This document shows positions 1 to 11,043 of a stretch of 64,000 bases of DNA, piece by piece. Position 1 is the stretch's first letter; each line of letters opens with the position of its first letter. The position numbers were made by a program, and so were the translations under genes. The notes under the pieces are model-generated. The model worked only from the letters and a program-made list of their open reading frames with translations, ran no database searches and was not told the origin of the DNA. This stretch comes from Bacteroidales bacterium. Lineage in GTDB: Bacteria > Bacteroidota > Bacteroidia > Bacteroidales > GCA-2748055. The stretch covers positions 1 to 64,000 of the forward strand of contig JAGLOO010000048.1 in the NCBI GenBank assembly GCA_023138875.1, given 5' to 3'.

Positions 1-50
1 TGGAATTTACTAGAGTATATATGTTAGACAAAATAAATACAAGGAATCAA

Positions 51-575
51 ATGGAAAAAGAAAAAATATTTAAAAGACATGAAAACAGAAAAGATCTTGC
101 GGGAGAATATGTTTTTGGTGATATTGGGCAGGTTATCTTTCTATTAATATTTCTAGTTGTATGGATAACTGATTCCTTTTTTATAAAGTATTCAATTTTG
201 GCTTCTGATTATTTCTCACTTTACATCAGAATTCCTTTAGCGGTCATTGTTTTATCTATTGCCATATATTTAGCAAAACAAGGATTGACCATCGTCTTTG
301 CTGAAGTAAGAGAGGAACCGATGGTTATTCGAAAAGGAGTTTTTAGTATTGTGCGACATCCCATTTATCTTGGCGCAATTCTGTTTTACCCTGCATTGCT
401 AATTTTCTCTTTTTCGCTGGTTGCGGCATTTATCTGGGTAGGTGTCATCTTGTTTTACTTTTATCTTTGCAAACATGAAGAAAAACTACTCATCGAGATA
501 TTTGGAAAAGACTATGAAAAATATAAATCAGAAACACCTATGCTTATACCAAGACTAATAAAACGAAACGAATAA
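51..575 (+). CDS. Isoprenylcysteine carboxyl methyltransferase-like membrane protein (cassette gene A)
   Basis: This is a multi-pass inner-membrane protein of about 174 residues in the ICMT/PEMT-like methyltransferase family. It has the family signature RHPIYLGAIL and the C-terminal EE..L...FG.DYE.Y motif, which form the SAM-binding part. Three to four hydrophobic segments are visible. An upstream ATG at 21 overlaps the cassette core GTTAGAC, so the ATG at 51, preceded by AAGGA, is preferred. The substrate is unknown; bacterial members methylate varied small or lipid-like molecules. A clear paralogue lies at 10531-11043, sharing the GDIGQ and VWITDSF motifs. The gene is the cargo of cassette A, is followed after 1 bp by the attC core, and is more AT-rich than its paralogue. 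Confidence 0.8.
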   Translation: MEKEKIFKRHENRKDLAGEYVFGDIGQVIFLLIFLVVWITDSFFIKYSILASDYFSLYIRIPLAVIVLSIAIYLAKQGLTIVFAEVREEPMVIRKGVFSIVRHPIYLGAILFYPALLIFSFSLVAAFIWVGVILFYFYLCKHEEKLLIEIFGKDYEKYKSETPMLIPRLIKRNE

Positions 576-576
576 T

Positions 577-643
577 GTCTAACAAATTGCTTAACCCGAC
601 ATTACTCGCTGCGCTCGCACTGCGGGTTAGCATAGCGTTCTGC
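577..643 (+). other. attC-like recombination site A
   Basis: The order is R'' GTCTAAC (577-583), a 5-nt spacer, L'' GCTTAACCCG (589-598), a terminal part with a small GC-rich hairpin, L' CGGGTTAGC (623-631), a 5-nt spacer and R' GTTCTGC (637-643). L'' pairs with L' except for one extra T, like the extrahelical base that directs strand choice in attC sites. The R' core departs from GTTRRRY. The core used by the next cassette, GTTAAGC, lies at 692-698, leaving about 50 bp (644-691) that may be the scar of a lost cassette. Confidence 0.6.
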
Positions 644-723
644 GATCATAAAAAAGGGATGGAAATAGTTTAGAGGTGCGTTTGTATAGAAGTTAAGCTG
701 CATATTAAATAGAAACAAAAGAA

Positions 724-2868
724 ATGGAAAAATTAATGATTTCAGTACACAAAAAGCTTAAAGATCCACTTACCTATGTTTCTTTATTTTCATTAATACT
801 TGCAATTCTTGTTGTATTAGAAACAAACAATATTGGACCCATAAAAAAAGCATTAATCATTTTATTAATTTTCATCACTTTTTTTTTAACTCTTTGGAAA
901 ATTTATACATGGTATTCTTCAAAAAGAAAATATGTATTCTATGAAAATTGGAACAATGCACCTAAATATTATCAAGTAGATGAAACGTTAAAATATTTAG
1001 CAGAACAAAAATGTAAACTCGAAATTATCAGCCGAACTAGTATGCAATGGCTTTTAGGTAGAGAGATTGACTGGAATCAAAAGAATGAAAAATACATTAA
1101 TAAAAAAAATGAACTTAAAGATGCAATTAAAGGTGCATTAAAAAGAGGAAGTAGCATACATTTTATTCTACAAAATCCTGATCTAAAAATAGGACAATTT
1201 GGCACAGAAGAACAGACTAGGCTTTATAAACAAACCATTGATGCAATTGAAAGTTTTGAAGATATTTTTAAAGAACTTGATCAAGAGCTTACAGAAAATT
1301 TCACATTGAAAATTTCTAATGAAATCATTGATAATAGCATGCTTCGTTTAGAAAAAAATAATAAAATAATTCGGTTTATTTTCGAAATAAGCATCAGATT
1401 TAAAAACAAACAAGAGAGCAAATTCTCAAAGCCTTTTTTAGCATTTACTGTTGAAACTGAAGAATTAATTGAATTTGAGAAAAAGTTTAATGATATTAGA
1501 ACAAATGCCCAACCTAGAGCAGAATTCTTTAAGAATCTTGCCTACAAAGAAATCGATAAGACCATTTTAAAATTCAATCAATTTTCAAAAATCCGCAATA
1601 ACAATAATAAATATCTGATAAATCCATTTGCCAAACTGTATAAAAATGAATTAATTGAATCAAACCTTTCTATTCCATCTTTAACTTCAATACAATTACT
1701 TATTACTAATAAATGTACAACACATTGCATTATGTGTGATCATTATAAGATTAGCAAAAAAAAGGAAGCAGAGCTGTATTTTACGGAAATTCAATATATA
1801 CTTAAATGCATAAAAGAAATTGGGACTAAATCGATTATCATTTCAGGAGGAGAACCTTTAGCAAGATCCGATTTTTTTGAAATTATTGAACACTCAAGTT
1901 ATCTTGGATTGCACACAGGATTGTTAACAAATGGAATAAAAAATGAAAATGGCATTCACAAGTCTATCTCGAAAATTGATGCAAGGAAAATAGCTGCATA
2001 TATTTCATGGATTCAATTATCTATAGATTCAGTTCAAAACGATACTTACCATGCTATTAGAGGTCGTGATTATCTTGATTTAGTTTTACAAACACTAATC
2101 CAATTAATTCTAGTTAATTATAGAAATATCGAAATCACATATACCATCCAAGAAAGAAATATTAATGAGATAAGTTCATACCGAAAAGATTTCAGGGAAA
2201 AGATTTCTGGTATAATAGATAAACATTTTAAAGATGAAGCAAAAGATTTATTACTTAAACATGTTTTAGAAATACCTGTTCGCTTTAAATTTGCTCATGG
2301 ACCAGTAGATGAAATTAACTATTTATGTAAAGAAGAAAGTCTAAAAAAACTACTTAGATCATTCCCGCACCAAAGTAATTTTAATTATATAAATTCAATG
2401 ATTGATGAAGAATTCTTTAATTATAAAGATCTGGCAAGCGGCAAACCTCTTGCCAGTAGAATGAAATCATATTCAAAGGATAGCAAATGTTTTGCTATGC
2501 GTTTTTCATGTAAAATTGATTCTTATGGGGATATATATCCTTGTTGTTTTTTATTTGATGATAATAATTCAAATTCTGATTTTCGATCACAATATAAAAT
2601 TGGAAGTATGAGATCAAATACAAGTAACATTGCATATGGAAAGAAAAATCATCTTAAAAAGGCTCTTTTAAGTTCACAATACAAGAAACTAATAAATACA
2701 AATCTCCCTATTGATTCTGAAGCTTGTACATATTGTACAAGACATTTTTATCAAAACGAGTTTTTAAATAAAATTTCAGCGATTTTTGATAAAAACAAAG
2801 AAAACAATTTAGTTGAGGACATTATTGAAAATAACAACTATGTATTTGATGAAAATTTATGGATATAA
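724..2868 (+). CDS. Membrane-anchored radical SAM protein with N-terminal PLD-like domain (cassette gene B)
   Basis: The 714-residue protein begins with one or two transmembrane segments (about residues 15-60). A soluble region follows (about 95-270) whose pattern, including IHFILQNPD and a helix-rich stretch, recalls the non-catalytic PLD-like/DUF5919 fold. The radical SAM core has the [4Fe-4S] motif C331-x3-C335-x2-C338 and an ISGGEPL SAM-binding motif. A Cys-rich SPASM/twitch-like tail follows (CFAMRFSC, PCCF near 590-610, CTYC near 675) that could hold auxiliary clusters. The SAM chemistry is secure; the substrate and the role of the N-terminal domain are unknown. It fills cassette B alone and is very large for a cassette gene. 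The start ATG lies 25 bp inside the cassette boundary, without a clear RBS. Confidence 0.8.
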   Translation: MEKLMISVHKKLKDPLTYVSLFSLILAILVVLETNNIGPIKKALIILLIFITFFLTLWKIYTWYSSKRKYVFYENWNNAPKYYQVDETLKYLAEQKCKLEIISRTSMQWLLGREIDWNQKNEKYINKKNELKDAIKGALKRGSSIHFILQNPDLKIGQFGTEEQTRLYKQTIDAIESFEDIFKELDQELTENFTLKISNEIIDNSMLRLEKNNKIIRFIFEISIRFKNKQESKFSKPFLAFTVETEELIEFEKKFNDIRTNAQPRAEFFKNLAYKEIDKTILKFNQFSKIRNNNNKYLINPFAKLYKNELIESNLSIPSLTSIQLLITNKCTTHCIMCDHYKISKKKEAELYFTEIQYILKCIKEIGTKSIIISGGEPLARSDFFEIIEHSSYLGLHTGLLTNGIKNENGIHKSISKIDARKIAAYISWIQLSIDSVQNDTYHAIRGRDYLDLVLQTLIQLILVNYRNIEITYTIQERNINEISSYRKDFREKISGIIDKHFKDEAKDLLLKHVLEIPVRFKFAHGPVDEINYLCKEESLKKLLRSFPHQSNFNYINSMIDEEFFNYKDLASGKPLASRMKSYSKDSKCFAMRFSCKIDSYGDIYPCCFLFDDNNSNSDFRSQYKIGSMRSNTSNIAYGKKNHLKKALLSSQYKKLINTNLPIDSEACTYCTRHFYQNEFLNKISAIFDKNKENNLVEDIIENNNYVFDENLWI

Positions 2869-2876
2869 AATACGCA

Positions 2877-2946
2877 GCTTAACACTTAAGTATCGTTTTA
2901 GGCGGTAGCCGAATATGTACTTTTTGTTGCACTAAACCGGTTATGG
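2877..2946 (+). other. attC-like recombination site B
   Basis: R'' GCTTAAC (2877-2883) is complementary to the start of its own cassette (692-698, extending to 10 bp). L'' CGTTTTAG (2894-2901) pairs with L' CTAAACCG (2932-2939) at 7 of 8 positions, and GTTATGG (2940-2946) follows directly as R'. The spacers are unequal (10 nt against 0), which is unusual for attC. Confidence 0.55.
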
Positions 2947-2962
2947 CAGGCGTGATACCTTA

Positions 2963-4057
2963 TTATATTGTGGAATCGATTATTTCAGGTGAGCCTGGTT
3001 GCAAATTTCGCATTGCATTTTGGTCGGATATTTCGTGAGAAGGAGATCTTTTATCCGGCAAAACACTGTATTGTTTCAAAATCCTACAACATAAATAAGT
3101 AATCCAAGGTGATGGTTCTTTCTTATTTGAAAAATCCCACCCCTTATAATTCATAAATACAGAAGTTGGTTTAAATCTACTATCCAAGGATTGAGAATTA
3201 GTAATCCAGTCAATTAATTCCCTTACAACAGGTTCATCTTTCAAAAAATTAAACATGGTCAATACATCAGCTAAATACAATGCATTATACCAAACAAATG
3301 GATATTTAAAAGTCCAAAATTTCTTTGAACGTCCAAAATAGTAAAGAGTTTTTCCATAATCCTTATGAAATTTTAACGGTTCGAAAGCGAATTTTGAATA
3401 TTCAGATTCTTTTAACTCCGGAACCTTAGAAAAAATATCAAGTGCCATTAATCCCGCTATTGGGCAGCCTATTTGTAGTTTTTTAAACTGACTCTCAACA
3501 AAGAAAAAATGGCAAAACCAACCTCTTTTATCAATCCACTTACTTTTCAACTCTTCGATAGCTTTTTCAACTTGTACATTTCTTACGCCTAATTCATATA
3601 AAGCATATGTTATTATTGGTGAATTACAAGGTGAGACATGCCATACATCTGCTGTTAAGTCAGGCTTCTTAAACTTTTCACCTTTTTTTGGTCGTTCCGG
3701 GATTTGTCCACGAACTGCAAACAGATTATCAATTATATGTTGAGTTGCCTTATTAATTGTATCAGATAAATTAAGGTTAGTATGTTTAATACCGAAATCA
3801 GCTAATATTCGGAGTTTGAAATAACTGATTTTCGGGTCATTGTTTCGTGTAGGAGCAACAGCAATCCAATCTTTTATTTCGTTAGCTAATCCAATAATAT
3901 TTTCATCACTCAGTAAATCTGATTTTGCATTAATTACTTCACCATCTGTTTCTGAAAGATCAAGTAAATCTGTCAAAGTTCGATATTTCGTCCAGGGATT
4001 ACTCTCAAGTAACCAGGGTATCGGATTGTCTTTTAATTCATTTGTCCAATTCATCAT
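2963..4057 (-). CDS. Alpha/alpha-toroid (prenyltransferase/terpene-cyclase fold) protein, antisense in cassette C
   Basis: The protein has 364 residues and no signal peptide or membrane segment. Its N-terminus (PWLLESNPWTKYRTLTDLL) and C-terminus (KKEPSPWITYLCCRILK) match a family of uncharacterised bacterial proteins built from repeated helix pairs, resembling the squalene cyclase/prenyltransferase alpha/alpha toroid. I see no DXDD cyclase motif, so catalysis is unproven. The gene lies antisense to the polarity of the cassette array, with attC-like sites on both sides. An antisense cassette gene normally needs its own promoter. Confidence 0.68.
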   Translation of the reverse strand: MMNWTNELKDNPIPWLLESNPWTKYRTLTDLLDLSETDGEVINAKSDLLSDENIIGLANEIKDWIAVAPTRNNDPKISYFKLRILADFGIKHTNLNLSDTINKATQHIIDNLFAVRGQIPERPKKGEKFKKPDLTADVWHVSPCNSPIITYALYELGVRNVQVEKAIEELKSKWIDKRGWFCHFFFVESQFKKLQIGCPIAGLMALDIFSKVPELKESEYSKFAFEPLKFHKDYGKTLYYFGRSKKFWTFKYPFVWYNALYLADVLTMFNFLKDEPVVRELIDWITNSQSLDSRFKPTSVFMNYKGWDFSNKKEPSPWITYLCCRILKQYSVLPDKRSPSHEISDQNAMRNLQPGSPEIIDSTI

Positions 4058-4079
4058 TACAATGTCCTCTTATAATGTT

Positions 4080-4200
4080 GCCTAACGGGGCGTTAAACGG
4101 ATTGTTCTGGTACGTTCGGTTTGACTTCCAATTAAAGATACGGTTTTGTGACGGACAATTATTCTGCTTCTAAATGCGATTTGGTTTAGCGATGTTAGCG
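4080..4200 (+). other. attC-like recombination site C
   Basis: R'' GCCTAAC (4080-4086), spacer GGGG, L'' CGTTAAAC (4091-4098), a long terminal segment of about 85 nt, L' GTTTAGCG (4184-4191), spacer AT and R' GTTAGCG (4194-4200). L'' and L' pair at 7 of 8 positions. The R'' core conforms to RYYYAAC; R' deviates at one position. The length of 121 bp is within the known attC range. No matching core for a following cassette was found, so this may be the last site of the array. Confidence 0.58.
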
Positions 4201-4250
4201 CCTGGGCATTAAAACATATTGAAGAACGTAACCATCACAATAGGACTTCC

Positions 4251-4463
4251 TTATTTTACTCTCGACAGAACTCCGAATGGGATTTCATCAATCTCATTTC
4301 CATTCTTTTTTAGTTTGATCCTCACTTTATCCTCCTCTACAAGATTAAGATATGTGACATTTTCCTCCCCAGCAATCTTAAATACGGACTGCCATTCCCC
4401 TTTGTTGCAGCATAAACAAGCAATCAAGCAGACCAGATAAAAGGTATTTCTTAGTATTCTCAT
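4251..4463 (-). CDS. Small putative lipoprotein
   Basis: The 70-residue product has a basic N-terminus, a hydrophobic stretch and a lipobox-like LIAC, followed by CLCCNKGEW, typical of a lipoprotein signal peptide processed by signal peptidase II. The remaining 45 residues are charged and have no recognised domain. An overlapping forward ORF (4219-4440) has no such features and is taken as its shadow. The gene lies just right of attC-like site C and may belong to a further cassette or to the chromosome flank. Confidence 0.5.
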   Translation of the reverse strand: MRILRNTFYLVCLIACLCCNKGEWQSVFKIAGEENVTYLNLVEEDKVRIKLKKNGNEIDEIPFGVLSRVK

Positions 4464-4618
4464 TTAACTATGTCTGATGTTACTCTATCTAATCTATTTG
4501 ATTCTCGAGTGAACAGCTACAAAGTCCAAGTCAATGCTGAATGTGCCTGAACGGACAATTTTTATCAGGAGACAAGCTGGTATTTACACAATGGCGACAG
4601 TTATTATTAAATATTCTC

Positions 4619-6319
4619 TCATTTAGAGTATTTTTTTGATTGTAGTATTGTTGGTTGACCTGCTGCATTCTGGCTTGCTGCATCACCATATATATAGTAA
4701 ATATCTGTTCCAAGTGTTTCTATGCCAACTGGTCTCATGCAATTGCTAAAATCACCTGATATTGTATTCCAACCTGTTCCATCAAAAAGATAAAGAGCAG
4801 GATAGTGCGATTCTGCTGATTCAACTTTCTCGGTGGAAATTATTATGTTTCCATCACTGTCTATAGCCATTGCAAAGGAGTCAAAGAACCATTCGGCATC
4901 ATCCGGAATTAGATTTTCGACTGTTGAAGAACTTGTGACTTTATAAACACCCCCATTATAAGTATAAGACCGTGTACCTGAATTGAAATATAGTTCAGAA
5001 CTATTCTTTGCTAATTCAATATTTCCTAACCATTCCTGATACCACTCCAGGTCAGTATCCCAAGTTGTTCCATTAAGATGTTTAATAAAAAACGTATCAT
5101 CTACCCTATAATTTAAATATAGAGTACCATCAATATTTTCAATAGCAGGTTCAAAAATGCTTCCAGCAGCAATTATTCCATTAGCATCTCCACCGATGGT
5201 ATCCCACACAGCACCGTCCCATTTCAAAACCTGTAAGTCATAATCTGGTGCTTGTTTTATTGCCATATACAGATCATTATTAAATACATCTATTGATACT
5301 GACGATGGACTATCATCTTTTCCGAGATTACCGGGTGTAAGATTTGATGACCAGACAGAACCATTCCATTCATACACGCATAACGAATCGCTAAGACCTG
5401 CCATATAAGATTTATCCGAATTCGCAGCAAAGTTTGTTTCATCGAAACTAACATCCGGAATCGATGTCCAAAGTTTTTGCCATGTACTTCCATTGAGTTT
5501 ATATAAAGCTGGTTTACCATAGGCTGTAATAGCTGCATCTTTTATTACACCGAGATAAACAGTATTATCTATTCGTTTAGTTAGAAGATTATATATTGCA
5601 CCCGATACGGATGCTGTTGCTTGTCCTAAATCTGTTATTGTATAATTAATTATAGGGTTTCCACTATTCTGAGGTACAGCACTAATAATTGTTCCTTCTG
5701 AGATTGAATAAAATGGGGAAAACCATGTGTCAATACGATAAAAAAATGATTTTCCTTGTAATTCGGGATTAGAATAAAAATTGTCGTGGTAAGCCCTGTC
5801 GTGATCTACATCTGCAATTTTTTCATACGTACCAAGCGAGTCTTCACTTCTATAGATATCAAAACGAATTTTAACATCATTTAAAAAGCTTTCATTATTG
5901 CCTTCGTTCCATTTTAATGAATTGCTCGTTTCGCCTATTGTTATTTCGATATCTGTAACTGGAAGAATATCATAGGCATATCCTTCTTCAATTTCTGAAT
6001 ATTCAGCATCATCTGGCCAGTCATTACGAATTCGATACTCGAACACTTTACCTGGGGGCATACCTTCATTACCATATCCATGCCTGTCAAAAAACGGGTC
6101 CCCGGTTCCGGTTATAATTTGCCAGTTTTGGGTTCCTTTTTCCCTGCGCTCAACTAAAACACTTCCAACATTAGGATCTTTTTCGAAATCAATGTAGACT
6201 GTCGCAACTGAAAATCCTTTAGATGCAGTAAATCTTTTGGGTTTTGGATTGCCTTCTTCTTTTTCACACGAAATCAGAATCAATAAAACCACTAAGCTGA
6301 GACTAAATATTTTTTTCAT
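4619..6319 (-). CDS. Outer-surface lipoprotein with fibronectin-like and propeller-like repeats
   Basis: The 566-residue protein has a lipoprotein signal (LLILISCEKEE), so it is probably anchored in the outer membrane. Residues about 30-220 look like two fibronectin type III-like beta domains. The rest holds five or six divergent repeats of the form LYxxNGxxW (LYKLNGSTWQ, VYEWNGSVWS, VLKWDGAVWD, IKHLNGTTWD, LYLFDGTGWN), consistent with a kelch-like six-bladed propeller. No catalytic motif is seen, so binding or adhesion is the likeliest role. It is transcribed alone and shares the AT-rich composition of the left flank. Confidence 0.65.
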   Translation of the reverse strand: MKKIFSLSLVVLLILISCEKEEGNPKPKRFTASKGFSVATVYIDFEKDPNVGSVLVERREKGTQNWQIITGTGDPFFDRHGYGNEGMPPGKVFEYRIRNDWPDDAEYSEIEEGYAYDILPVTDIEITIGETSNSLKWNEGNNESFLNDVKIRFDIYRSEDSLGTYEKIADVDHDRAYHDNFYSNPELQGKSFFYRIDTWFSPFYSISEGTIISAVPQNSGNPIINYTITDLGQATASVSGAIYNLLTKRIDNTVYLGVIKDAAITAYGKPALYKLNGSTWQKLWTSIPDVSFDETNFAANSDKSYMAGLSDSLCVYEWNGSVWSSNLTPGNLGKDDSPSSVSIDVFNNDLYMAIKQAPDYDLQVLKWDGAVWDTIGGDANGIIAAGSIFEPAIENIDGTLYLNYRVDDTFFIKHLNGTTWDTDLEWYQEWLGNIELAKNSSELYFNSGTRSYTYNGGVYKVTSSSTVENLIPDDAEWFFDSFAMAIDSDGNIIISTEKVESAESHYPALYLFDGTGWNTISGDFSNCMRPVGIETLGTDIYYIYGDAASQNAAGQPTILQSKKYSK

Positions 6320-6650
6320 ATCTGTTTTTTATTATTAGTTTGCTTGTTAAAATTATCGCCAACGTATGTATAATAATAGCACTGGTGTTTATTTCTACTA
6401 TATGCTAATTCTTTTATATCTCACTAATTGCAATAATTCCAGAATATTTAAACTCTCAATCAAAGCAGAACTTCTTGCAAATTGCATTCCCAATAACCCT
6501 TAGTACGTAAAATGGAGATTTGTGTTTAGTCTTGTAGGAAAATCTCAAAGTATTGTTGAGGTTGATGTCACTTTAAATCTAACGAATATCTACTGGATAT
6601 CAATATCTACTTGCTAACAAGGAAAAGTTACACCTTTTTTACACCCGTCA
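6320..6650. other. AT-rich intergenic stretch
   Basis: About 330 bases hold no ORF with coding character, no repeat and no RNA gene that I can recognise. It probably contains the promoter of the lipoprotein gene ending at 4619. A GCTAAC at 6613-6618 resembles an attC core but has no palindrome around it. Confidence 0.4.
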
Positions 6651-6687
6651 AAAAGAAAAACGCCCTACATGCTTGACATATAGAGCG
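6651..6687 (-). terminator. Rho-independent terminator of tRNA-Arg
   Basis: On the minus strand a stem CGCTCTA/TAGGGCG with an A/T-rich inner part is followed by TTTTTCTTTTT, 18 bp beyond the tRNA 3' end. It is a standard intrinsic terminator. Confidence 0.75.
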
Positions 6688-6704
6688 CTTATATCTAATT
6701 TATG

Positions 6705-6776
6705 TAGCTCCACCAGGACTCGAACCTGGATCTACGGTTTAGGAAACCGCTATTCTATCCCTTGAACTATGGAGCC
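6705..6776 (-). tRNA. tRNA-Arg (anticodon CCT)
   Basis: The 72-nt cloverleaf folds fully: acceptor GGCTCCA/TGGAGCT with a terminal G-T wobble, anticodon stem GCGGT/ACCGT around loop TTCCTAA, and T-arm CCAGG-TTCGAGT-CCTGG. The anticodon CCT reads AGG. CCA is not encoded. It sits between the AT-rich left flank and the housekeeping region, a common place for integration boundaries, but no direct repeat of its 3' end was found. Confidence 0.95.
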
Positions 6777-6789
6777 AGAAATTGCGGGG

Positions 6790-6821
6790 CAAATTTAGGT
6801 TAATTCTGATTTACTGCCAAA
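6790..6821 (-). promoter_or_regulatory. Bacteroidota-type promoter of tRNA-Arg
   Basis: On the minus strand TTTG (6818-6821), a 20-bp spacer and TAAATTTG (6790-6797) match the TTTG-N19/20-TAnnTTTG consensus of the Bacteroidota housekeeping sigma factor. The -7 element ends 13 bp before the tRNA. Confidence 0.65.
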
Positions 6822-7370
6822 TGTGATTCTGAATTTGCAGGGCCAACGCAATTAAATCCTGATGATTTTTAACAGGAACTCGTCATCCCAGTCTGCCACC
6901 AGCCGTTTGTTTTTGAGGCTACCAAGAAAATGTAAGATCATCTCAATCTTTGAAGAACCTGATTAGGGTGTCCCATCGTACAAAGCAGGAAGAAGGAATC
7001 TTCATTTCAGAAGATACAAGTGTAACGCTGTTGTTACATTTATATTTGGCAGGCTTGCTGCCATCCAGATTATATACAGCTGATATTTAAAGAGTTGAGG
7101 GATCACTTATATCCTGCTTCCCAGGTTGAAATGTTACACTGATGTGATATTCAGATCTTGAAAAACGGAGAAGGGAATTTTAGAGAAGGATATCAGCTAC
7201 AACAGCAAGGACAGTGCAATAATAGCTTCCAGGACCCTTTCGGGTGTCATCTGGCAGCCTTATTATCCAGGTCGATTATGAGTTTTGGTTGTATATAAAT
7301 AGGATTTAATTGACTTCTCACCCCTGATTTTGTAACTTGTCAACTATCGGTACTCTTAATCTTTTTGACC
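6822..7370. other. Long intergenic region with a possible decayed gene
   Basis: No intact ORF is present. On the minus strand two open stretches in different frames (about 7086-6945 and 6955-6852) overlap closely and have protein-like composition, for example SCFVRWDTLIRFFKD, and LGSLKNKRLVADWDDEF with LLKII. This would fit a small frameshifted gene remnant. No family is recognised and chance cannot be excluded. Confidence 0.25.
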
Positions 7371-7760
7371 ATGGACAATCAATATTTGTGCCCGCATTGC
7401 AGGGGTCATCTGAGGGTTGGAGACTGTATTGTATTTAAAATTCGCAATACAAAAAGAGAGAAGGGGTTGCTTCTGTTACATCCTGAAGCTGGGAATTATA
7501 CCAGCATTAAACATCCCCAATTCAATTTCCAGGAAGGAGAACGGATCGATTTCTTTTGCCCAATTTGTCTACAAAACCTGGATGCCGCTATCGATGAGAA
7601 CCTGGTTCATGTGATTATGATCGATGAACAACGTAATGAGCATGAGATCTATTTCTCCCGCATCGCCGGAGAGCTGAGAAATTACCAGTTATCTGAGGAG
7701 GGAATTACTAAAACCGGGGAGTACTCCCACATGTACACCCACTTTGAAATGTCGGATTAA
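7371..7760 (+). CDS. Zinc-ribbon-like conserved protein of unknown function
   Basis: The 129-residue cytoplasmic protein has two Cys pairs, CPHC near residue 7 and CPIC near residue 63, which together could bind one zinc ion. The C-terminal half is acidic with no recognised domain. An upstream TTG at 7365 is in frame, but the ATG at 7371 is the better start. It is convergent with the M1 peptidase gene (20 bp between stops). Confidence 0.65.
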   Translation: MDNQYLCPHCRGHLRVGDCIVFKIRNTKREKGLLLLHPEAGNYTSIKHPQFNFQEGERIDFFCPICLQNLDAAIDENLVHVIMIDEQRNEHEIYFSRIAGELRNYQLSEEGITKTGEYSHMYTHFEMSD

Positions 7761-7780
7761 TTCATCCGGCATCCGGGTAA

Positions 7781-9391
7781 TTAGTCGGGAGATTCATAAT
7801 GCTCAAAAAGGAGCCAGGTATCGGGATCGAGAATTATTTCGGTAGGTTTCTTCTTTGTCTTGATGGTGAAAACCTGTACGGAAGCGGTTATATGAAAGGT
7901 TTCTGTGGTTGACTTCCCGTTGCCACAAACAATTTTGATGTCCAGGGGAAATTCAAATACATGCTGTTCCTGATGTTGATTGATGGTAAGCTTAATCTCT
8001 TTCCTATTGTATTCCATGTGTGCTGATAGAACAGGATGGCCTGAATGGTAGAACCATTGCCGGAAAAAGGACTCATAACTTCTTCCGGAGAGCGAATCCA
8101 CAATTTGCCGGAAGTCCTGCGTAAGCGTATTCCCGTACTTGTAATGGTGGTAGAAGGCGCGGACACATTGCTGGAATAATTCATCTCCCAGGTCCCTGCG
8201 CAGCATATGCAACACCCATCCAGCCTTCTCATAGGTGTTTTCATTCAGAAGGCGGACCGAGACCGGAAGGGTGGTATCCACAATGGGAGCCAGCCTTCTT
8301 CTGGCAAATCTCAATACCTGGCCCTTTTCATCGAGCATGGAAGCCACAAATACCTCCCTGCCATGTTCATGCTCCAGGTAGAGGTCGGTCAGGTAGGTGG
8401 CAAAACCTTCGCTGATCCAGACATGGTGCCAGTTAAGTTCTGATACGGCGTCACCAAACCACTGGTGCGCTATTTCATGGGTAAAGAGGGTTTCGTGAGC
8501 CTGGTTGCCCGTAACGGTACTCTCCCTGTAGAAGATGCAGCTGGCATTTTCCATTCCCCCGTAAACAGTTTTGGACTGAACATTGGCCAGCTTGGAGAAT
8601 GGATAGGGGGCTATGTACGATTCGAAGAAGTCCAGCGGACGTGTGGCTATGCTATAATCGTAAAAACCATCCTCCTTGTTCTGTGGATAGACCCAGGTTG
8701 ATACGGGAACCCCGGATGAACTCTGTAAATGCTGAACGGCAAATGGGCTCACTCCGATCACCATCAATTTTGTGGGAAGTGGAACCGGGCTCTTCCACTT
8801 TGAGGTTACCCTATCCTCCTCCCTGACCTCTTCCACCTTGGTTCCATTGGATACCACACCATAATGTCCCGGTGCATGTACAAGGAATTCCACCAGTGCT
8901 TTGTCGGATGGATGATCCACCACCGGCAGCCAGTGATGCGCGCGGTTGGGCCAGTTATCTCCAAAGAATGTACGGTCACCGAATTTGTTCTCTGAAATGA
9001 TCAATCCGTCTGCTGGTATACCGTGATAATTGATCTGATACCGCCTTGTGTCACCTTTTCTGACAGGCGGGATCGAAAGCTCAATGCGGTCATTGTTGTG
9101 TTCAAAATGGACTATCTTCCCGTCTTCCAGCACTTCCTCGATCACCATTCCTGTTCCTTCATCGTTCCTGTTTTTCAGATCAAGGTGAAATTTGTTCTCT
9201 TCAGTTTTAAACAATACTTCCACCATAGCGTTACCCCGGATTACATCGGTGGAATCATTTAGATTAATTTCAAACCTGTATTTCAATACATCGATTGTCC
9301 TGAATCTATCATGATGATCCTGCGCCCTGACCGGTATCAGCAGAAATCCGCCGAGGTAAAACAGTATGATTATCTTTCGAATGAATTTCAT
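7781..9391 (-). CDS. M1 family metallopeptidase (aminopeptidase N-like)
   Basis: The 536-residue secreted zinc peptidase has a signal peptide ending near AQD. It carries the exopeptidase motif GGMENA, the zinc site HEIAHQWFGD and the third ligand in WISEGFATY. It lacks the long C-terminal helical domain of E. coli PepN and ends soon after the helical part, with a short beta tail, as in many Bacteroidota M1 enzymes. It probably trims peptides in the periplasm. The gene stands alone and is divergent from the OleD-like gene. Confidence 0.88.
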   Translation of the reverse strand: MKFIRKIIILFYLGGFLLIPVRAQDHHDRFRTIDVLKYRFEINLNDSTDVIRGNAMVEVLFKTEENKFHLDLKNRNDEGTGMVIEEVLEDGKIVHFEHNNDRIELSIPPVRKGDTRRYQINYHGIPADGLIISENKFGDRTFFGDNWPNRAHHWLPVVDHPSDKALVEFLVHAPGHYGVVSNGTKVEEVREEDRVTSKWKSPVPLPTKLMVIGVSPFAVQHLQSSSGVPVSTWVYPQNKEDGFYDYSIATRPLDFFESYIAPYPFSKLANVQSKTVYGGMENASCIFYRESTVTGNQAHETLFTHEIAHQWFGDAVSELNWHHVWISEGFATYLTDLYLEHEHGREVFVASMLDEKGQVLRFARRRLAPIVDTTLPVSVRLLNENTYEKAGWVLHMLRRDLGDELFQQCVRAFYHHYKYGNTLTQDFRQIVDSLSGRSYESFFRQWFYHSGHPVLSAHMEYNRKEIKLTINQHQEQHVFEFPLDIKIVCGNGKSTTETFHITASVQVFTIKTKKKPTEIILDPDTWLLFEHYESPD

Positions 9392-9533
9392 GGTATCTAA
9401 ACGCTGGACAAAGCTGCAATTTATAAATATCCCAACGGACTAGAGGGATCAATATCAAACTTGCGTAATTTTTTTGTTGCGACTTGGAAGTGTTTGTGGA
9501 GAATGATTATTTTTATAATCCTAAAATGGCACT

Positions 9534-10529
9534 ATGAATGTACTCGTTACAGGTGGAGGTGGTTTTATGGGGATGGCCCTTATTAAGCGGTTGATTGCAG
9601 AAGGCCACAAGGTTACCAGTTTTTCAAGGCGGGAATATCCATTACACTGGGCCCTTGGCATCAGCAGTATTCAGGCCGATATCAGGGATCCTGAAGCCAT
9701 TGAAAAGGCCTGTAAAAAGAGGGATGTGGTGTTTCACCTGGCAGCAAAGGTCGGGATCTGGGGAGCATATGATGATTACTATTCCACCAATGTGACCGGT
9801 ACATTAAATGTAATCAAAGCATGCCGGAAACAGGGAGTATCCCGTTTGGTATTCACAAGTTCCTCCAGCGTGGTGTTTGATGGTTCGGACCTGGATGGGA
9901 TTGATGAGTCCTATCCCTATCCTGAAAAGCATGGCTCGCATTATGCTGCCACCAAGGCCATGGCTGAACGGCTGATTATTGAGGCCAATTCCGATGGTTT
10001 AAAAACCATTGCACTTCGGCCGCACCTGGTATGGGGTCCATACGATGCCCATTTAGTTCCCGGCATCCTGAAGAGGGCAGGTTCTGGCAAGCTGAGGCGC
10101 ATTGGGGACAAGGAGCACTTTATTGATACTACCTATATCGATAATATGACCGATGCCCTGCTTCTGGCAGCAGATGCACTGGAATCAAATCCGGAGGCAT
10201 CCGGCAAGGCCCTGTTCATTACCAATGGAGAGCCTGCCAGGGTATGGGATTTTATAAACTCAATTATTCAGATAGGCGGGCATGAAACGGTGCAGAAAAA
10301 AACCCCGGAAAGAGTTGCAATGGCTGCTGCCGGATTTGCAGAATGGTCTCATAAGTTTTTCAAGATTAAATCAGAACCTTTTATGACCAGGTTCGCTATT
10401 AAAGAAATGTGTACAAACCACTGGTTCGATATCTCCAGGGCAAGGGATATATTGGGTTATTCACCCAGGGTCAGTTATGCAGAGGGATTTAAGCACCTTA
10501 AAGAGTATCTGAAGATAGGCAGAAGATAA
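9534..10529 (+). CDS. NAD(P)-dependent extended SDR, OleD / 3-beta-HSD-like
   Basis: The 331-residue protein is an extended short-chain dehydrogenase: TGGGGFMG nucleotide-binding motif at residues 6-13, HLAAKVG, TSSSSVVFDG and the catalytic YAATK. The order DESYPYP, LRPHLVWGP, DTTYIDN and HWFDIS is very like OleD (2-alkyl-3-oxoalkanoate reductase of olefin/beta-lactone synthesis) and the sterol 3-beta-HSD group. No OleA, OleB or OleC homologue is in the window, so the exact substrate is open. The gene is followed after 1 bp by a methyltransferase-like membrane gene, indicating an operon. Confidence 0.82.
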   Translation: MNVLVTGGGGFMGMALIKRLIAEGHKVTSFSRREYPLHWALGISSIQADIRDPEAIEKACKKRDVVFHLAAKVGIWGAYDDYYSTNVTGTLNVIKACRKQGVSRLVFTSSSSVVFDGSDLDGIDESYPYPEKHGSHYAATKAMAERLIIEANSDGLKTIALRPHLVWGPYDAHLVPGILKRAGSGKLRRIGDKEHFIDTTYIDNMTDALLLAADALESNPEASGKALFITNGEPARVWDFINSIIQIGGHETVQKKTPERVAMAAAGFAEWSHKFFKIKSEPFMTRFAIKEMCTNHWFDISRARDILGYSPRVSYAEGFKHLKEYLKIGRR

Positions 10530-10530
10530 A

Positions 10531-11043
10531 ATGACCACTAAAAAGCACCACAGCCATCCCCATTTAACCGGTGAGCATAAACTGGGGGATATTGGTCAGT
10601 TGATACTTTTCTTCCTATTCCTGGGGGTCTGGATCACCGATTCATTTGTCTTTCATTATTCTACCTTTCTGAGGGATGTTATACCTGACTATGTAAGAAT
10701 TCCTGTGGCGGGGACAGTCCTTATTGCCAGCTGGTACATGGCCAGGAGGGGAATGAAGGAAGTTTTTGGAACCGAAAGGGGTAGACCCGGAGTGATCCGG
10801 ACAGGAGTATTCAGGGTAGTCAGGCATCCAATCTACCTGGGAGCGATCCTGTTTTACCTGGGAGCCATATTCATTACCATGTCAATAGCTTCAGCTGCAT
10901 TCTGGATCATGGTGATCATGTTTTATATCCTCATTGCCAGGTATGAAGAACGCATTCTGACAGAGGAATTTGGTGATGATTACGACAGCTATAAAAAGGA
11001 TGTGGGAATGTTATTCCCAAAACTCAGACGTCTCAAATCCTGA
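10531..11043 (+). CDS. Isoprenylcysteine carboxyl methyltransferase-like membrane protein
   Basis: The 170-residue protein has several transmembrane segments and the ICMT/PEMT signature RHPIYLGAIL, with a C-terminal YEERILTEEFG and DDYDSY motif for SAM binding. It starts 1 bp after the OleD-like reductase stop, so the two are probably co-translated. It is paralogous to the product of 51-575 (GDIGQ, VWITDSF and the whole core are shared), but its composition matches the chromosome. The substrate is not predictable; a lipid or quinone-like product of the neighbouring reductase is a reasonable guess. Confidence 0.8.
   Translation: MTTKKHHSHPHLTGEHKLGDIGQLILFFLFLGVWITDSFVFHYSTFLRDVIPDYVRIPVAGTVLIASWYMARRGMKEVFGTERGRPGVIRTGVFRVVRHPIYLGAILFYLGAIFITMSIASAAFWIMVIMFYILIARYEERILTEEFGDDYDSYKKDVGMLFPKLRRLKS

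Follow-up and report, generated by a model that had tools for sequence, protein, structure and literature searches.

The window, the whole stretch of DNA that was analysed, comprises 64,000 nucleotides (64 kb) of a Bacteroidales genome of 4.79 Mb that is divided into 87 contigs and is 99.6% complete. It corresponds to contig C43 from base 1 and therefore opens at a contig end. The features identified at this end are given below, where R1 denotes a covariance model of the canonical attC site and R2 a covariance model of the type-2 site, a longer palindrome that is described further on.

1–25, + strand: right-hand part of attI, ending at the recombination point TATATATG^TT; the same 25 bases close contig C50.
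21–575, + strand: gene of cassette A, a membrane methyltransferase of the PEMT/ICMT group, 184 aa (Pfam PF04191, 1.2e-8; PF04140, 3.7e-6).
23–30, + strand: 5' core of cassette A, GTTAGACA, with the cut expected at G^TT, complementary to 576–583.
577–643, + strand: attC of cassette A, matched by R1, with R'' GTCTAAC, L'' GCTTAACCCG carrying an extrahelical T, L' CGGGTTAGC and R' GTTCTGC.
637–692, + strand: conserved 56-nt segment after the attC, GTTCTGCGATCA...TATAGAAG^TT, with copies in related loci.
692–2883, + strand: unit B, with the 5' core GTTAAGCTGC and the 3' core GCAGCTTAAC (10/10 core match), starting at the end of the conserved segment.
724–2868, + strand: gene of unit B, a radical SAM/SPASM protein with an N-terminal hydrophobic segment, 714 aa (PF04055, 3e-16; PF13186, 6e-6).
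2884–2946, + strand: stretch after the 3' core of unit B, up to GTTATGG (R1 about 8 bits, R2 6.7 bits).
2940–4087, no strand given: proposed unit C, unsupported as a cassette (cores 3–4/7; no R1 or R2 site at 4080–4200).
2963–4057, − strand: gene within the proposed unit C, 364 aa, with no Pfam or NCBIfam family.

The original prediction had described this stretch as an integron-type array of three cassettes without an integrase, and had reasoned from the polarity of the units that any integrase would lie to the left. No integrase is present in the 64-kb window, but the genome does contain one. An integron integrase gene, intI, was located at C50:52308–53159 (−), where it scored 367 bits against a cut-off of 265 with the TIGR02249 family model, and it was the one match above this cut-off in the genome. 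The 3' end of C50, TGGAATTTACTAGAGTATATATGTT, is the same sequence as window 1–25, and a search of the whole genome found this 25-mer only at C43:1–25 and C50:54428–54452; the join rests on these 25 bases in a fragmented assembly. The contig overlap and the strands place intI to the left of the array and divergent from it, on the side that the polarity had indicated. The array is thus located on the start side of intI, with its attCs in a single orientation, as is found in integrons.

In the phylogenetic tree the C50 integrase was placed within the IntI clade with 100/100 support, its IntI-specific insert is present, and its neighbour is another Bacteroidales sequence (L012, 89% identical). 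Comparison with three relatives revealed a 28-nt insertion after DIRTIQE, which puts LLGHKDVRTTMIYTHV out of frame. The LGHKDV...Y region is intact in the relatives L012, L014 and L016, whereas the C50 gene is frame-shifted before the LGH motif and the catalytic tyrosine, and an intact catalytic domain was not found in it. From this out-of-frame insertion we expect the C50 copy to be inactive, which lowers the claim of activity for that copy and not the integron status of the locus; the insertion could also be an assembly error.

The attI core GGCAGTAGAATATATG^TT, or a close variant, precedes the first cassette in L012, L014, L016, L020, L021, L023, L026 and L113. In the window genome the attI is split, with its left part GGCAGTAGAA near the far end of C50 and its right part GTATATATG^TT opening the window. 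Between the two halves lies a C-terminal fragment of an IS110-family transposase (L009:8981–9424; IS110 model, 2e-23), and with this fragment between intI and the array the attI is not intact. An attI with the insertion point G^TT is seen beside intI, its core being kept in the relatives. In both L014 and L113, three cassettes with attC-like sites lie between the attI core beside intI and an end segment starting GTTCTGCGATCA. The cassettes differ between these two species while both borders, the attI core and the end segment, are retained. Gain or loss of cassettes at the core sites, which the original prediction had proposed as a check in related genomes, was observed in the form of other cassettes between the same borders, in a comparison of different species and not of strains.

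The 8-bp core pair of cassette A (GTTAGACA, 23–30, with TGTCTAAC, 576–583) and the 10-bp pair of unit B are present exactly as had been written in the original prediction. Pairs of 8 bp are as common in the 64 kb (three observed) as in shuffled sequences (3.45 expected), so the core pair of cassette A alone is no evidence. This frequency would suit the explanation that there is no integron here and that the array-like signature arose by chance in an AT-rich intergenic region. We find that explanation scarcely credible, as it is contradicted by intI on the adjoining contig, the conserved attI core, the further attCs in the genome and the attC match at the end of cassette A.

That match was obtained in two ways. 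A scanner for the R''/L''/L'/R' arrangement, applied to both strands of the whole window, ranked 577–643 first with a score of 23.5 (next, 18.5), and this score was reached in none of 400 shuffled 8-kb sequences. The R1 model was built from 12 attC sites, of which five came from Bacteroidota relatives and the other seven from elsewhere, with no window sequence among them; one row, the aadA7 attC, was entered by hand. In the training alignment, 27 cells changed on both sides against a shuffled mean of 11.5. Under default filters R1 scored 577–643 at 29.6 bits (E 3e-4), with the runner-up in 64 kb at 14.6 bits, and the value of 29.6 bits was recovered when the whole genome was searched. With the filters off, over 1–8000, the site appeared as 581–639 at 19.5 bits (E 0.008); all of these E-values are rough. 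The palindrome with an extrahelical base that had been noticed after cassette A is therefore real, being the top-ranked candidate of the scanner as well as an R1 match. A covariance-model match had been anticipated at all three proposed sites and was borne out at the first alone, as 2877–2946 and 4080–4200 scored about 8 bits (<9), like random positions, with the filters off over 1–8000. Likewise, paired R and L boxes with an extrahelical base at the 3' end of a cassette were found at 577–643 and failed at the other two sites. When the three candidate sites were folded as single-stranded DNA, their stabilities did not exceed those of shuffles, and minimum-energy folding alone speaks neither for nor against an attC; a gathering-level Rfam scan of the window returned tRNAs only. 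From the R1 match together with the C50 intI, cassette A (23–636) is a genuine integron cassette. At 10522–11025 (+) the window encodes another methyltransferase, which shares 46% identity with the cassette A protein.

Downstream of this attC, window 637–692 reads GTTCTGCGATCATAAAAAAGGGATGGAAATAGTTTAGAGGTGCGTTTGTATAGAAG and is followed by TT. Copies of the 56-nt segment were found at L113:7686 and at L106:8218 and 9736, a diverged copy at L108:1032, and a related end in L014. Beyond the final GTT of these copies, which is the second G^TT point, the sequence is variable. The segment looks like the end of the array, yet it also resembles an insertion point for further units. Unit B begins at this point. 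Its cores, GTTAAGCTGC at 692–701 and GCAGCTTAAC at 2874–2883, are complementary over 10 bp; one such pair was observed in the 64 kb, where shuffles give an expectation of 0.15, and for the first 4.7 kb the expectation is 0.03. With the start of the unit fixed, the chance of an exact core partner within 200 nt of the stop codon is about 1e-4.

The same position was occupied in three related loci (L106, L108 and L113) by units closed by a type-2 palindromic site. The cores of these next units are complementary in L108 (GTTATAAACA / AGTTTATAAC) and, as read by eye, in L106 and L113 (GTTACCCAAC / GTTGGGTAATAAC, with an insertion; GTTGGCGTTC / GAAACGCTAAC, with one mismatch). With R1 at about 8 bits and R2 at 6.7 bits, the stretch at 2884–2946 cannot be named a canonical attC or a type-2 site. 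Judged from its sequence, unit B is probably a cassette, and one with a site type other than the canonical attC, because its cores match at 10/10 positions and it opens where the conserved segment ends, a position set independently by the related loci. The earlier reading of unit B as an integron cassette is therefore upheld by the core rule and by the positional rule, and fails the canonical attC test.

It may instead be argued that cassette A is the only integron-derived unit, that B and C are ordinary genes beside the array end and that the 10-bp match of unit B is a coincidence. The blank R1 and R2 results at 2877–2946 and 4080–4200 agree with this, as do the mismatched cores of C, and shuffled sequence of 4.7 kb would hold a 10-bp pair with a probability of about 0.03. 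However, the place at which B starts is fixed by the related loci, and given this start the exact partner has the far smaller chance of about 1e-4; matching cores are also present in the units that occupy this position in L106, L108 and L113. We regard this explanation as unlikely, although it deserves more weight than any other alternative considered here.

The proposed unit C presented a different picture. Its cores match at 3–4 of 7 variable bases; neither R1 nor R2 found a site at 4080–4200, and the claim that it is a third cassette is not sustained. The gene of the unit has distant homologues elsewhere in the genome and in the order, and no type-2 site was found beside these homologues in L117–L119 and L121. 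The original prediction implied that A, B and C are all cassettes of one decaying array, and the attCs of B and C would then have degenerated beyond recognition. A broken integrase would lead one to expect decay, and the cores of C do match when one indel is allowed. Nevertheless, the 56-nt segment that follows the attC of cassette A is the array end in L014 and L113, the sites of B and C have no L''/L' boxes in register, and the gene of C lies on the opposite strand, with its homologues free of an adjacent type-2 site. A single decaying array is therefore improbable in our estimation, and more so than the coincidental match of unit B.

The interpretation that we favour, and hold to be very probable, is that window 1–692 belongs to a sedentary chromosomal integron and forms its attI-proximal end, that A was inserted by IntI and that B was added at the second G^TT. 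Of the array interpretation that had been put forward, the array itself, its polarity and the integrase on the left are retained; cassette A alone passes the attC test, and C is set aside. In this order, intI is transcribed leftwards on C50, the attI is split by the IS110-type fragment, and the window starts with the last bases of attI. Cassette A would have been inserted at G^TT (position 23) through IntI-mediated recombination between attI and the folded single-strand attC (577–643), as in other integrons; the R' of this attC (637) is supplied by the conserved array-end segment 637–692. Unit B would have been added at the end of that segment via recombination at the second G^TT, which we infer from the 10-bp complementary cores and from the type-2-closed units that three related loci have in this place. 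With the presumed loss of IntI activity, the array would now probably be immobile unless another recombinase serves it. The weak points of this interpretation are that a site recognised by R1 was obtained for only one of the cassettes, and that the 3' site of B fits neither R1 nor R2.

The units of L106, L108 and L113 end in the type-2 site, a palindrome of ~130 nt. A DNA search with the L106 copy detected it in 12 of 61 relatives, and an alignment of 17 copies presented 16 outer-arm pairs, 13 of which had changed on both sides (covariation). Most copies are flanked by RYYYAAC and GTTRRRY. Matches to R2 were obtained in 31 of the 61 relatives, in 102 of 296 genomes of the phylum and in 61 of 140 genera. 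Many of these matches form same-strand arrays with one site per 0.3 to 4 kb, such as L224, where 12 sites were located in 16 kb.

Were type-2 units cassettes, one would expect complementarity between the GTT core that follows a site and the next AAC core, and this was seen. In the first set, 18 of 24 pairs from adjacent units were complementary at 6–7 of 7 variable positions, compared to 2% of mismatched pairs; a repeat in fresh genomes gave 16 of 24 neighbouring pairs against 3%. This amounts to 34/48 in total, and the observed mean was reached in none of 20,000 permutations in each of the two sets. The rule of GTTRRRY/RYYYAAC complementarity on which the original prediction relied is therefore a real signature in this phylum. 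Type-2 units resemble those of integrons in being bounded by such complementary cores. They differ from canonical cassettes in their palindrome, which exceeds the attC in length and has covarying arms of its own, without the attC structure; R1 detected no canonical attC in the type-2 arrays L179, L180, L183, L186 and L223–L226. These sequence patterns make the cassette nature of the type-2 system well supported.

Two observations were made on the borders of type-2 units. After several type-2 sites (L129, L137, L140 and L184, in G041) the GTT core is replaced by a repeat, CGATGATATAGCATTCGCC...AATGCTATATCATCG, the far end of which runs into the GTT of the next unit. In L179 (G055:C3), a nearly identical sequence of ~125 nt ending TATCACCAATGGTGATATTAAGTAG^TT precedes three cassette units (before 6517, 7552 and 11695), and the second system may thus possess a segment, present in several copies, that is attI-like or acts as a promoter.

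Tyrosine recombinases located near type-2 arrays matched the IntI model at positions 1–181 and 239–315 and not in between, 182–238 being the IntI-specific part. In the tree they fell outside the IntI clade, with four from array neighbourhoods grouping together at a weak support of 79/41. The recombinase of the second system is accordingly not IntI. Compared with the integron-like tyrosine recombinases as classified in PMC8138268, the array-side recombinases agree in matching the IntI model over its N-terminal and its catalytic part, and differ in having no counterpart of positions 182–238 and in their place outside the IntI clade. Among 48 genomes, 13 recombinases share a contig with a listed type-2 site, and for nine of them a site is 2.4–10.2 kb away; in eight of these nine the listed site is downstream on the same strand, and in one it is divergent. 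As they are based on the type-2 sites among the matches listed, these distances are indicative. Of 28 genomes with a type-2 site, 23 had a strong recombinase match (<1e-55), as did 10 of the 20 without one, a modest association. We infer that the insert-less recombinase moves type-2 units.

Recombinases on C12, C19 and C81 of the window genome, two of which are near type-2 sites, were considered as drivers of these sites and rejected, since they accompany what we take to be an IS91-like transposase, encoded by the gene that follows each of them. The two included in the tree branched separately, together with one from a different genome. They are of the sort that accompanies IS91-like elements and were not counted as cassette recombinases.

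Taken as a whole, these results make it likely that Bacteroidota possess a second widespread integron-like system, composed of G^TT-cut units on the same strand, sites of ~130 nt that are missed by R1, and an insert-less, IntI-related recombinase at the head. In this genus it would share arrays with the integron, with units lying inside the conserved segment of the integron's own cassettes, and unit B would be a member or a close cousin.

Most integron work concerns Proteobacteria and antibiotic resistance. Cassette A and its integron are real and constitute a new lineage of integron. They share with sedentary chromosomal integrons a TIGR02249 IntI with its insert in divergent orientation, an attI core with G^TT, R''/L''/L'/R' attCs with an extrahelical base, single-gene cassettes and complementary cores. 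They differ in the Bacteroidales host, in the frame-shift of intI at this locus and in the conserved 56-nt array end that takes insertions of other units. A short array without an integrase in the window is also what a CALIN would present, as are the attC loci at C24 and C20, which are without IntI as far as they were read. For the window array this classification was rejected, as an integrase gene, though damaged by the frame-shift, adjoins it on C50. Canonical attCs of 41–45 bits were further detected by R1 on C23 (two), C24 (one strong site, besides a weak one) and C20 of the same genome, with C23 also containing a degraded intI and an attI core.

IntI was present in 6 of 18 genomes of the genus and, in a wider set, in 7 of 119 relatives and 2 of 97 genera. 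Among 395 sampled genomes of the phylum, a related IntI was found in 106, all of which, except the window genome and G155, are listed outside the class. For Bacteroidetes proper, IntegronFinder 2.0 reported a single complete integron, that of Salinibacter ruber (PMC9024848), and none of 11 taxon-specific attC models is named for Bacteroidota (PMC8352920), while a passage of the archaeal integron paper lists Bacteroidota among the integron-bearing phyla (PMC9668308). A description of the type-2 system was not found in open-access papers on Bacteroidales integrons or palindromic cassette sites.

With a Bacteroidales genus that has several integron loci, in which an attC type recurs and the array end is conserved, integrons reach into a class where hardly any had been described. 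The second system is the larger point and the most surprising result. If a third of the sampled Bacteroidota genomes hold folded sites of another kind, many of them in arrays, together with an insert-less recombinase, cassette capture exists in more than one form, and finders built on canonical attCs would probably miss type-2 arrays. The IntI-specific insert is held to be essential for IntI function (PMC8138268), and what it is needed for could then be tested in a comparison of the two systems, both recombining at G^TT.

The cargo identified in the window genome includes a TIR-domain protein, the nucleotidyltransferase/HepT pair of C20, the radical SAM protein and a transporter, which suggests defence and metabolism and not drug resistance. 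A second integron locus of this genome (L106, G000:C23:26000–40000; 2243–4561 and 8218–9742) combines a degraded intI, an attI core and canonical attCs with a composite cassette, which has matching outer cores (GTTCTGCGATC / GATCGCAGAAC) and encloses a unit of the phosphate-transporter family that ends in a type-2 site. In L107 (G000:C24:1–9000), at 4540–5351, an attI core without intI is followed by a cassette for the TIR-domain protein and a canonical attC; the best NCBIfam match of this protein is an anti-phage retron TIR protein. Several high-scoring canonical attCs and an integrase fragment were also observed on a cyanobacterial contig (L087, Kaiparowitsia implicata). Truncated yjbQ-like N-terminal fragments recur beside integron loci (L009, 6998–7150; L014, about 3088–3240; L108, 2610–2740 and 3527–3690), all of which stop at about the same point (GATAGIM) and may mark a hot spot for genomic-island insertion.
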